From NCBI GenBank assembly GCA_016840855.1, contig JAEORO010000008.1:1-50600 (forward strand): a stretch of DNA of 50,600 nt. The letters run 5' to 3'. Shown here piece by piece: positions 16,738-20,976 of the stretch (the stretch's first letter is position 1; each line of letters starts with the position of its first letter). The notes beneath the pieces were generated by a model. That model ran no database searches and was not told where the DNA came from. It was given only the letters and a program-made list of their open reading frames with translations. The position numbers and the translations under genes were made by a program. Source of the DNA: Candidatus Thorarchaeota archaeon (GTDB taxonomy: Archaea; Asgardarchaeota; Thorarchaeia; Thorarchaeales; Thorarchaeaceae).

Positions 16738-17583
16738 CTAAATCTCATCATGAACTCTTTCGAGGTTTTCAACAACCTCGATTGAAACAGTGACTCCTCC
16801 AAGCTCCGTATAATGGATTGTTCCATGATAATCGCTTCCTCCAGTCTGAATGATATCTAAATCCTTGATAATCTCTCTCACCTCATCAGATGATCGATGT
16901 ATACCCAAGAAACTATAATCATAATCTACCTCAATACCCAAAAGCCCTACGTTCATGAGGGTTTGTATGAACGATAGCAAGTCTTGAACTCTGATAGTCA
17001 ATGGATGTGCCAGAACTGGCACGGCGCTGACTGACCTCAGGAGTTTGGTTGCTTCTAGTGCTGGCATTCGTTCTTTTTTCACATATCCTGGCTTATCATG
17101 GGCTAGATATTTTTGAAATGCTTCTTGTGTGGAACCAACAAATCCTTTCTTGACCAATAGCTGGGCAACATGAGGCCTTCCAGGACTTGAAACACCTACG
17201 ATGTCATCATAGAGTTCGTCTATGGAGATGTCAAGTCCCAAATCATTCAGTTTTTGAATCATCTTTGGAAGTCGGTTGTGTCTTGACGCTCTCAGATATT
17301 CCAATCTGTCGTTAAGAGGTTTGGAGTCAAGAGGCACGAAATACCCTAGTATATGGACCTCTCTACCTTCGTACTCAGCACTAATTTCAAGCCCTGAAAT
17401 ACGTTTCAAATCGTCTGATGCTTCAGCTCCCATGAGTTCTTGTATCCCATCAAGTGAGTCGTGGTCAGTTAGTGCAATACATCCAAGTTTCATTGCATCA
17501 GCTTTTCTGACCAGTTCTGATGGCGAATCACTTCCATCGGAAGCTGAGGAATGAATATGGAGGTCAGCACGGGCTCTCACCAT
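16738..17583 (-). CDS. PHP domain phosphoesterase (YciV/RNase AM-like)
   Basis: This 281-residue PHP protein shows ADLHIHSSASDGSDSPSELV at the N-terminus, IALTDHDSLDGI next, ILGYFVP, VLAHPLTI near residue 190 and a final GGSDYHG. These are the histidine and aspartate ligands of the trinuclear metal site of PHP phosphoesterases. The layout resembles the YciV type, which acts on 3',5'-bisphosphonucleotides and 5' RNA ends. The first 20 bases overlap the end of the YkgJ-type gene, and the amidohydrolase gene follows after 11 bases. Confidence 0.87.
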   Translation of the reverse strand: MVRARADLHIHSSASDGSDSPSELVRKADAMKLGCIALTDHDSLDGIQELMGAEASDDLKRISGLEISAEYEGREVHILGYFVPLDSKPLNDRLEYLRASRHNRLPKMIQKLNDLGLDISIDELYDDIVGVSSPGRPHVAQLLVKKGFVGSTQEAFQKYLAHDKPGYVKKERMPALEATKLLRSVSAVPVLAHPLTIRVQDLLSFIQTLMNVGLLGIEVDYDYSFLGIHRSSDEVREIIKDLDIIQTGGSDYHGTIHYTELGGVTVSIEVVENLERVHDEI

Positions 17584-17980
17584 GAGCAGCCTCCCACTGT
17601 AGTGTTTCTACAAGTCTTCGAACTTTGTGGCAAATCTTTCGTATTTCCTCACGAGATACGGTCTCACCTGATGGACAATCTTTATCGATAATGCACTTCC
17701 TTTTTCTCGCATCATAAATGATTGGATAGTATTTACAGCCTTCAGGTCTATTCTCGTAAATGCGACATAGTTTCGTTTTAGGGTCATAGAAGAAGCAGAT
17801 TCCATTTACATTTCTGAGTTCGCAGAATCCTGCATTCACGCGTACCATGAAGTCTTTTCTATTGTAACCCAATGCTTCAATCCTTTCAACATCTTCTCTT
17901 GTCAAGGTCATCTCAGTTTCAGTACAGCAGAAACGCACCTCTTCACAAGATCCGTCGTGGTTGCAAATAAAGGGGGTCAA
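17564..17980 (-). CDS. YkgJ-type cysteine cluster protein
   Basis: This is a 138-residue protein with a CxxxC-type cluster: CEEVRFCC at the N-terminus, then GFCELRNVNGICFFYDPKTK, LCRIYENRPEGCKYYP and CIIDKDCPSG. This is the YkgJ/UPF0153 pattern, thought to bind zinc or an Fe-S centre; its function is unknown. The start is a TTG at 17978-17980 with GGAG about 11 bases upstream. It appears to be the first gene of the operon continuing to the PHP, amidohydrolase and Mut7-C genes. Confidence 0.78.
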   Translation of the reverse strand: MTPFICNHDGSCEEVRFCCTETEMTLTREDVERIEALGYNRKDFMVRVNAGFCELRNVNGICFFYDPKTKLCRIYENRPEGCKYYPIIYDARKRKCIIDKDCPSGETVSREEIRKICHKVRRLVETLQWEAAHGESPC

Positions 17981-18125
17981 AGTATCTTATGCTCCTAGTG
18001 CATCGGTCAGATTGCGGTTTAATGGGTCATCACGCAGATGAGTCGTTCACCATCCCTACTTCATCATCATCCCGACAATGATGAAATAGCTGGTGCTAGG
18101 CTAAATATGCTTTCCAAAGATGAAA

Positions 18126-18787: not shown

Positions 18788-19060
18788 CTAGATGTTTCTC
18801 CTAGCAAGTCGCCGAGATGGTGAGAGGTTCTCTGTCAAATCTTCGACATTTTCACCACTTGGAAGATTTTGAAGTGGAAGCCTTTTACCAGTGATCTTAA
18901 AGTAAGCGTTAGCCCGAACTGCGTGTATGTATGCCATCAAGTCATTTGGTTGAGATGCAGCACCAAGAAGCAAGGCACGTCGCTTCCCAAACACATCAAG
19001 AAGTTTTTCCATTATCTTCATTGCAGTTCTATCCAAAGTAATTTTCTCAGAATCGCACAA
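18788..19060 (-). CDS. Small protein of unknown function, divergent from ABCE1
   Basis: This 90-residue protein has no family that I recognise. It is helical and basic (VFGKRRALLLGAASQP, HAVRANAYFKITGKRL). The frame begins with a TTG at 19058-19060; an ATG at 19021 would give a 77-residue form starting MKIMEKLL. The TATA-like TATATA at 19100-19105 is about 40 bases upstream and could serve both this gene and ABCE1. The coding call rests on context and composition. Confidence 0.5.
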   Translation of the reverse strand: MCDSEKITLDRTAMKIMEKLLDVFGKRRALLLGAASQPNDLMAYIHAVRANAYFKITGKRLPLQNLPSGENVEDLTENLSPSRRLARRNI

Positions 19061-19099
19061 AAGGATTGTTATCGAGTCATTCGCACTCAGCCAAAGTGC

Positions 19100-19105
19100 T
19101 ATATA
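19100..19105. promoter_or_regulatory. TATA-like box between ABCE1 and the small divergent gene
   Basis: TATATA lies 51 bases before the ABCE1 ATG at 19156, leaving room for a leader of about 25 bases that contains AGGTG (19139-19143). The same self-complementary box is 40 bases from the TTG at 19060 on the other strand. Confidence 0.4.
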
Positions 19106-19155
19106 CTCTCCAAAAACATCCTCCGATAGCTTCTCCGCAGGTGTTGACGCTTCAA

Positions 19156-20976
19156 ATGCGCATCGCGATAATTGACAAGTTCAGATGCAGACCAAAAGAC
19201 TGCACTCATGAGTGCCAGCGGTTCTGTCCGCGAGTCAGAACTGGTGATGAGACCGTCATCTTTCCTGATGGCCAGGACAAACCACCAGTCATAGTGGAAT
19301 CTCTATGTTCAGGTGAGGCTATCTGTGTCAAGAAGTGTCCATACAGTGTCATTCGAATCGTTAACCTGCCTGAGGAGCTTGAGAGCGATACTAGCCATCG
19401 CTATAGCGTAAATGGGTTCAAGCTTTTCAGACTCCCCATTCCGAAAGATGGTCAGGTGCTCGGTCTCATTGGACCAAATGGTGTTGGGAAGACAACTGCA
19501 ATACGCATTCTTGCTGGCGAGATGCCTCCAAATCTAGGACGGTTTGATAATCCTCCTGGGTGGGATGAGATTATTCCAGCATTTCGTGGTTCTGAGCTGC
19601 AACCTTTCTTTGAAAAGATTCAGGCTGGTTCACTTGTCCCCATACTGAAACCTCAGAACATCACCGATCTTCCCAAGGTCAAAGACCTTGCAGATAGACC
19701 TATCAGCGAACTTCTGGAATCATCTGACTCATCAGGTCGCTTGAAGGAACTCAAAGATGACATGAACCTTAATGAGATTTGGGACCGACCAATCAAATAT
19801 CTTAGTGGGGGCGAGCTGCAACGAGTCGCAGTAACCGCAGCCATCGTACGTGATGGCGACATCTATTTCTTTGACGAACCGACAGCATACCTTGACGTAC
19901 GAGAACGCCTTCGGATGGCTCGTGCAATTAGGAAGTTGACCTCTCTTGGAAAGACTGTGATTGTTGTAGAGCACGACCTTTCAATTCTCGACTATGTTTC
20001 AGATTTGGTTTGTATGTTCTATGGAAATCCCGGTGTTTATGGAATTGTATCACATCCACATGGAACTCGTGTCGGAGTGAATATCTTTCTTGATGGATTC
20101 ATCCCTGATGAGAACATGCGTTTTCGCGATACAGCGATCTCTTTCAAAGGAATGACTGCGGATGATGACGGGTATCTCTCACGAGAAGCTATGATCGAAT
20201 ACGGGGACATGAGGAAGAGCTTTGAGGACTTCACCCTTGAAATAAAGGGCAGTCGTGTTTCGAAAGGTCAGATTGTTGGCATTCTAGGTCCAAATGGAAT
20301 TGGCAAGACTACGTTTGTTAGGATGCTTGCGGGAGAATTAGATCCTGACGAAGGCGAAGCACCTAAGAAGACGGTCACTGGTTTAGACCTTAAAATCAGT
20401 TACAAACCACAGTACATCCCAACAGATTTTGAAGGTAATCTGAGAATGTATCTTCGGGCAGCTGGTGGCTCTAAGATTGACTCTGCTGATTTCAAAACTT
20501 CAGTGATTAATAAGCTTGAACTTGAACATCTTTTAGAACACCAAATCCAAGACCTTAGCGGAGGCGAATTGCAGAGAGCAGCCATAGCTGCATGTCTTGC
20601 TCGAGAAGCTGACATTTACCTACTTGATGAACCATCTGCATTTCTGGACATTGAACAGAGACTTGCGAGTTCACGTGCCATTCAGAGGATGGTCAGAACC
20701 AGTATGAAGACAGCATTCATAGTTGAGCACTCTATATTGATGGCTGACTATCTTAGTGATAGTCTTGTGGTGTTTGGAGGTATTCCTGGCAGATCTGGTG
20801 TAGCGTCTTCCGTTAGAACACTTCGAAATGGAATGAATATGTTCCTGAAAGAAATGGGTGTGACTTTCAGAAGAGACCCTCAGACTGGACGACCACGGGT
20901 CAACAAGGATGGTTCAAAATTAGACTCGCAGCAGAAGGCATCTGGCGAGTACTACTATGTAGGTAAGGGTGAGTAG
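19156..20976 (+). CDS. abce1: Ribosome recycling factor ABCE1 (Rli1)
   Basis: This 606-residue twin-ATPase splits ribosomes after termination. The N-terminal Fe-S domain has CRPKDCTHECQRFCP (all four cysteines of the first set) and then LCSGEAICVKKCP, where the usual second cysteine of CxxCxxCxxxC is a glutamate (E54). ATPase 1 has GPNGVGKTT, LSGGELQR and FFDEPTAYLD; ATPase 2 has GPNGIGKTT, LSGGELQR and LLDEPSAFLD. Both signatures are intact, so the ATPase should work. The frame is open 30 codons further up, but the family N-terminus MRIAIIDKFRC and the AGGTG site at 19139-19143 fix the start. It converges with the next gene, leaving a 1-base gap. Confidence 0.95.
   Translation: MRIAIIDKFRCRPKDCTHECQRFCPRVRTGDETVIFPDGQDKPPVIVESLCSGEAICVKKCPYSVIRIVNLPEELESDTSHRYSVNGFKLFRLPIPKDGQVLGLIGPNGVGKTTAIRILAGEMPPNLGRFDNPPGWDEIIPAFRGSELQPFFEKIQAGSLVPILKPQNITDLPKVKDLADRPISELLESSDSSGRLKELKDDMNLNEIWDRPIKYLSGGELQRVAVTAAIVRDGDIYFFDEPTAYLDVRERLRMARAIRKLTSLGKTVIVVEHDLSILDYVSDLVCMFYGNPGVYGIVSHPHGTRVGVNIFLDGFIPDENMRFRDTAISFKGMTADDDGYLSREAMIEYGDMRKSFEDFTLEIKGSRVSKGQIVGILGPNGIGKTTFVRMLAGELDPDEGEAPKKTVTGLDLKISYKPQYIPTDFEGNLRMYLRAAGGSKIDSADFKTSVINKLELEHLLEHQIQDLSGGELQRAAIAACLAREADIYLLDEPSAFLDIEQRLASSRAIQRMVRTSMKTAFIVEHSILMADYLSDSLVVFGGIPGRSGVASSVRTLRNGMNMFLKEMGVTFRRDPQTGRPRVNKDGSKLDSQQKASGEYYYVGKGE

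Follow-up and report, generated by a model that had tools for sequence, protein, structure and literature searches.

Does the ABCE1 (Rli1) protein encoded in the window, i.e., the whole 50,600-nucleotide stretch of a Candidatus Thorarchaeota contig analysed here, follow the canonical two-[4Fe-4S] form when one of its eight Fe-S cysteines is replaced by glutamate? The features concerned are the following:

19156..20976, + strand: ABCE1/Rli1 gene, complete, ATG start, 606 aa
19186..19227, + strand: first cysteine motif, C11, C16, C20 and C24 (yeast C16, C21, C25 and C29)
19306..19341, + strand: second motif, C51-S-G-E54-A-I-C57-V-K-K-C61-P (yeast C55, C58, C61 and C65)
19315..19317, + strand: codon 54, GAG (Glu), at the position-II cysteine of cluster II, from translation and alignments
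19471..19497, + strand: Walker A of the first ATPase domain, GPNGVGKTT, intact
20290..20316, + strand: Walker A of the second ATPase domain, GPNGIGKTT, intact

The translated protein, which begins MRIAIIDKFRCRPKDCTHECQRFCP, aligned over its full length with P. abyssi ABCE1 (PDB 3BK7, residues 1–602, E-value 4e-201), as well as with the yeast and human ABCE1 structures. It includes a Fer4_RLI domain (PF04068, 42.2 bits vs. a curated cut-off of 23), two stretches of ABC_tran (PF00005) and two LSGGELQR signatures, one per ATPase domain. Judged by this end-to-end alignment of Fe-S domain, two ATPase domains and C-terminal hinge, the protein is classified as an ABCE1/Rli1 orthologue. An alternative in-frame TTG lies upstream at 19066, and the ATG at 19156 is where the homologous reading starts in relatives.

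Seven of the eight Fe-S cysteines are present (residues 11, 16, 20, 24, 51, 57 and 61), and residue 54 is Glu. In BLASTP and PDB alignments this residue corresponds to Cys58 of yeast Rli1, the second cysteine of CIGCGICVKKCP, and to the second cysteine of CTGCGIC in P. abyssi (3BK7) and of CIGCGIC in the archaeal structure 6TMF. An earlier sequence-only reading of this DNA, according to which a glutamate replaces one cluster cysteine at codon 54 while seven cysteines and the two ATPase sites remain intact, is thus borne out by the translation and the alignment to yeast C58, as is its remark that Cys to Glu takes more than one base change (all three bases differ between TGY and GAG). Canonical ABCE1/Rli1 shares the full-length architecture, the Fe-S domain, the ATPase sites and seven of the eight cysteines with the window protein, but has Cys in place of Glu54 in every solved structure aligned (P. 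abyssi 3BK7, 6TMF, yeast 3J16 and human 9H6Y, the eukaryotic comparison consisting of solved structures only). Based on this pattern of seven cysteines with E54 at yeast C58, we class the window ABCE1 as an orthologue of a variant cluster-II type and not of the canonical two-[4Fe-4S] form, the ligands being assigned to clusters from ferredoxin topology, the literature and the pattern of co-loss rather than from a structure of the window protein. An AlphaFold2 model of this protein, computed with 24 relatives, gave a good ATPase core and an Fe-S domain with a pLDDT of 35–50, and its geometry therefore lends no support to a cluster model.

Several comparisons bear on the authenticity of Glu54. 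Glu54 is present in every one of the 15 genus genomes with coverage of the site, the window's own included, the ABCE1s of the other members being 81–94% identical to the window's over the whole protein, and both GAG and GAA are used for it in the family, which excludes a base-call error at codon 54. The claim thus survives the comparison with close relatives that had been proposed as its check, these carrying Glu rather than Cys. Between the window's ABCE1 and its nearest relative (G002), pS is 0.64 and pN 0.036, which corresponds to strong purifying selection on ABCE1 as estimated from these sequences, and Glu54 is kept within the genus despite synonymous sites near or at saturation. Within its own genome, the canonical CxGCGxCxxxCP motif was found at ten sites and the non-Cys form at one, in ABCE1 alone, so that the genome shows no general tendency to lose such cysteines. 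No second ABCE1 was found in the window's own bin, and the other Fer4_RLI match of this genome (L002) looks like Tsr3. By these comparisons the replacement of Cys54 is real, old and common to the genus. That Glu54 is an artefact (a sequencing or assembly error, a pseudogene, or a second copy holding the full cysteine set) has next to no chance of being true: the source is a metagenome bin with an estimated contamination of 6%, but the residue recurs in the genus genomes and in many independent assemblies, the frame is open and strongly constrained, a second ABCE1 is absent from the bin, and the relatives already refute this reading. A different bin of the family, with 9% contamination, holds at a contig end a second ABCE1 fragment with all cysteines (L055, G032:C112), likely from another archaeon.

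To place this replacement in context, 228 genomes of the phylum were searched and 146 Asgard ABCE1 sequences aligned, one of them masked at residue 54. Residue 54 was Cys in 77 of these rows, Glu in 43, Thr in eight, Ala in seven, Val in six, Ser in three and Asn in one, i.e., 68 of 145 genomes had a residue other than Cys. The remaining ligands were far more stable: cysteines 11, 20, 24 and 61 were unchanged in all rows, cysteines 51 and 57 in all except the masked one, and residue 16 was Ser or Thr in four of the 146, all from family f16 and all with Cys54 kept. The arrangement CxxXxxC...CP (X not Cys), with the second cysteine absent and the other three ligands present, was found in 67 rows; C24, C51 and C57 are invariant in all 67 of these full-length proteins, as are the four cysteines of the first motif. 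No compensating cysteine was found in the rows of this alignment without Cys54. In trees built without the motif columns, residue 54 requires 11–12 changes between Cys and non-Cys, at least seven of these being forced by well-supported branches (support ≥95), although such counts do not tell a loss of Cys from a return to it. Read from these trees, the Asgards exchanged this one cysteine seven or more times (most simply 11–12), some exchanges possibly being returns to Cys. The chance of seven independent losses all falling on one of eight equal sites is ~4e-6, a rough figure because the eight sites cannot be assumed equal beforehand.

The f16 rows (L048, L157, L162 and L167) represent a mirror-image loss, residue 16 (yeast C21) being position II of cluster I. 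Both kinds of loss remove the second of a motif's cysteines, at the position vacated in [3Fe-4S] ferredoxins. A relaxation of Gly55 to Ala tied to the loss of Cys54 looked suggestive, and independent pairs gave it no support. In one f10 genome (L057, G045) the second motif reads CSGEKACGICIKKCP, with a three-residue insertion that brings in a Cys as well as a Glu following the glycine; this may be a ligand regained or an intermediate form.

Outside the Asgards, the pattern differs. The full set of eight cysteines is present in 85 of 94 non-Asgard archaeal ABCE1s, drawn from many families, and Cys54 alone is lost in none of the 94; the nine exceptions are each short of several ligands. Three of these come from small-genome archaea and keep the other set: L283 (G264) is without residues 24, 51, 54 and 57, L314 (G284) without 24, 54 and 57, and L339 (G338) without cluster-I ligands 11 and 20. 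Six further exceptions, from f46 genomes of 0.7–1.1 Mb that are 95–99% complete (L285, L347, L348, L350, L351 and L352), have none of the eight cysteines, the eight places reading I-A-V-D-M-H-A-Y in an otherwise alignable Fe-S domain; theirs is apparently a cluster-free ABCE1, at odds with the view of the clusters as essential. Several other small and highly complete archaeal genomes (G233, G237, G246, G253, G255, G353, G360, G380 and others) gave no ABCE1 match at 1e-60 and may lack the protein or have a strongly diverged one.

When 84,980 bacterial and archaeal species were scanned at the DNA level for the motif carrying a non-Cys codon at position 54, at least 80 matches came up, and those listed comprise 79 Asgard records and a single unrelated site in Escherichia. 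The Asgard names include Thor-, Loki-, Heimdall-, Borr-, Sif- and Jordarchaea, and a listed record bearing just the title "archaeon" is a contig of the Thor family judged by its ABCE1. By tblastn with an Fe-S domain query, 78 of the 79 listed Asgard matches are ABCE1; the remaining one (L216), a Thorarchaeota record, ends at the edge of the fetched stretch.

What, then, has become of cluster II? The best explanation is that these are genuine, functional ABCE1s which have given up the position-II ligand of cluster II, and which probably hold a three-cysteine cluster that interconverts between [4Fe-4S] and [3Fe-4S]. C24, C51 and C57 stay invariant without Cys54, whereas ligands have decayed jointly in L283 and L314, and selection therefore still seems to hold a three-cysteine cluster. 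We infer that cluster II would still sit on these three cysteines as a [4Fe-4S] cluster, leaving one iron site without a cysteine hold, open or weakly capped: by the Glu54 carboxylate in the window protein, and by solvent or nothing in relatives with Ala or Val. Upon oxidation, the iron of the open site would be lost to give [3Fe-4S]. As to its exact state, cluster II is thus probably a three-cysteine [3Fe-4S] or a site-differentiated [4Fe-4S]. Such a cluster would keep the structural and allosteric role of the Fe-S domain in ribosome splitting, and the fourth cysteine would be dispensable for the work of this domain where there is no oxygen. Asgard archaea are generally described as living without oxygen. 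Seven of the eight Rli1 cysteines are reportedly essential according to Barthelme's work of 2007.

Known systems offer two points of comparison. PMC5654725 (citing Barthelme 2007) describes yeast Rli1 C58A, which lacks the same cysteine as the window protein, as viable, labile and Cu-sensitive, and states that Rli1 in a [3Fe-4S] state keeps partial function; this mutant is, however, engineered, labile and stress-sensitive, whereas the change in the Asgards arose naturally, is old, has recurred and involves six residues. In ferredoxins the second motif cysteine can likewise be replaced with the other three kept: M. marinum ferredoxins of the form CxxXxxC(X)nCP (X not Cys) hold [3Fe-4S] both aerobically and anaerobically, and the P. 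furiosus ferredoxin with Asp at this position (CxxDxxC) holds [3Fe-4S] in air and [4Fe-4S] without oxygen (PMC6237146). These ferredoxins are single-cluster electron carriers, whereas in ABCE1 the cluster is one of two in a ribosome-splitting ATPase.

The strongest alternative, which we consider quite possible if short of an even chance, agrees with a three-cysteine cluster II on structure and differs on cause: anoxic life would have removed the constraint on a dispensable ligand, and residue 54 would have drifted neutrally, its identity being without adaptive meaning. This fits the six different residues found at position 54 as well as the behaviour of yeast, in which the Rli1 single mutants C25S and C61S grow anaerobically but not aerobically and the C25S + C61S double mutant does not grow at all (PMC4523923). 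These yeast mutants likewise speak for the favoured three-cysteine cluster. However, the other archaea surely include many anaerobes and yet show no lone loss of Cys54 in the 94 sequences compared, so that anoxia alone is not the explanation, and Glu is over-represented and stable inside genera.

A further alternative makes Glu54 a dedicated fourth ligand of a Glu-ligated [4Fe-4S] cluster, similar to the Asp-ligated one in P. furiosus ferredoxin and selected for an altered redox behaviour or stability. Glu accounts for 43 of the 68 replacements, far more than any other residue, occurs on separate branches of the tree (f1, f2 g14, f4 and f5) and persists within the genus while synonymous sites there approach saturation, and carboxylate ligation is known at exactly the same motif position (PMC6237146). 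But the window's own family has Ala instead of Glu in 6 of 40 cases, at three separated places (g2, g4 and a single g3 genome), and Val, Thr, Ser or Asn is found in other families. Since relatives do with Ala or Val, Glu ligation is no general requirement, and we hold this reading as a tentative one, with Glu54 a possible fourth ligand in the window species. The sequence-only reading had proposed that either glutamate ligates the cluster or one cluster is altered; the altered cluster is supported, and ligation by Glu does not hold as a general rule.

It is tempting to speculate further that Asgard cluster II was repeatedly turned into an oxidation-convertible, site-differentiated [4Fe-4S]/[3Fe-4S] sensor of redox state or iron that tunes ribosome recycling, Glu being the switchable ligand of choice, but we regard this as improbable. 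Less probable still is a complete loss of cluster II in the Asgards without Cys54, ABCE1 running on cluster I only: natural losses evidently exist, in L283 and L314 for cluster-II ligands and in the six f46 genomes for all eight, but in the apparent true losses the ligands decay jointly, and the three remaining cysteines are held in every full-length row without Cys54 across several Asgard families.

The replacement touches on the old question of why ABCE1 has two Fe-S clusters at all, for which the Asgards, the closest prokaryotic relatives of eukaryotes, provide a natural experiment. The same one of eight ABCE1 cysteines is replaced there again and again, and its recurrent loss in the Asgards, set against its retention in other archaea and eukaryotes, suggests that one of the two clusters is probably built differently in those without Cys54. 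With a single ligand swapped on seven or more occasions, the remainder of the cluster site kept, and yeast surviving the loss of the same ligand, a three-cysteine cluster II is a clean prediction, and the natural Cys, Glu, Ala and Val versions represent matched enzymes for telling a structural from an allosteric or a redox-active cluster role. The premise of the sequence-only reading, an almost invariant ABCE1 with an essential Fe-S domain, proves too strong, as position 54 is free to vary within a single archaeal phylum, the ABCE1 of six small-genome archaea is devoid of all eight cysteines, and yeast survives with C58A (PMC5654725). The ABCE1 family and an engineered yeast equivalent of the Cys54 loss are already known, and a literature search among open-licence papers found no report of a natural, recurrent and lineage-restricted replacement of the yeast C58 ligand.

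Some Asgard genomes also encode a divergent ABCE1-like protein, 37–43% identical to the window's and with cysteine motifs of its own (L053 in G046, L176–L178, and two-match f22 genomes), in some cases beside an ordinary ABCE1. Within the window, a nearby opposite-strand gene (17564–17986, − strand) contains a CxxCxxCC putative metal-chelating domain (PF03692), and an open frame without a Pfam match (18788–19180, − strand) overlaps the start of ABCE1 by ~25 bases.
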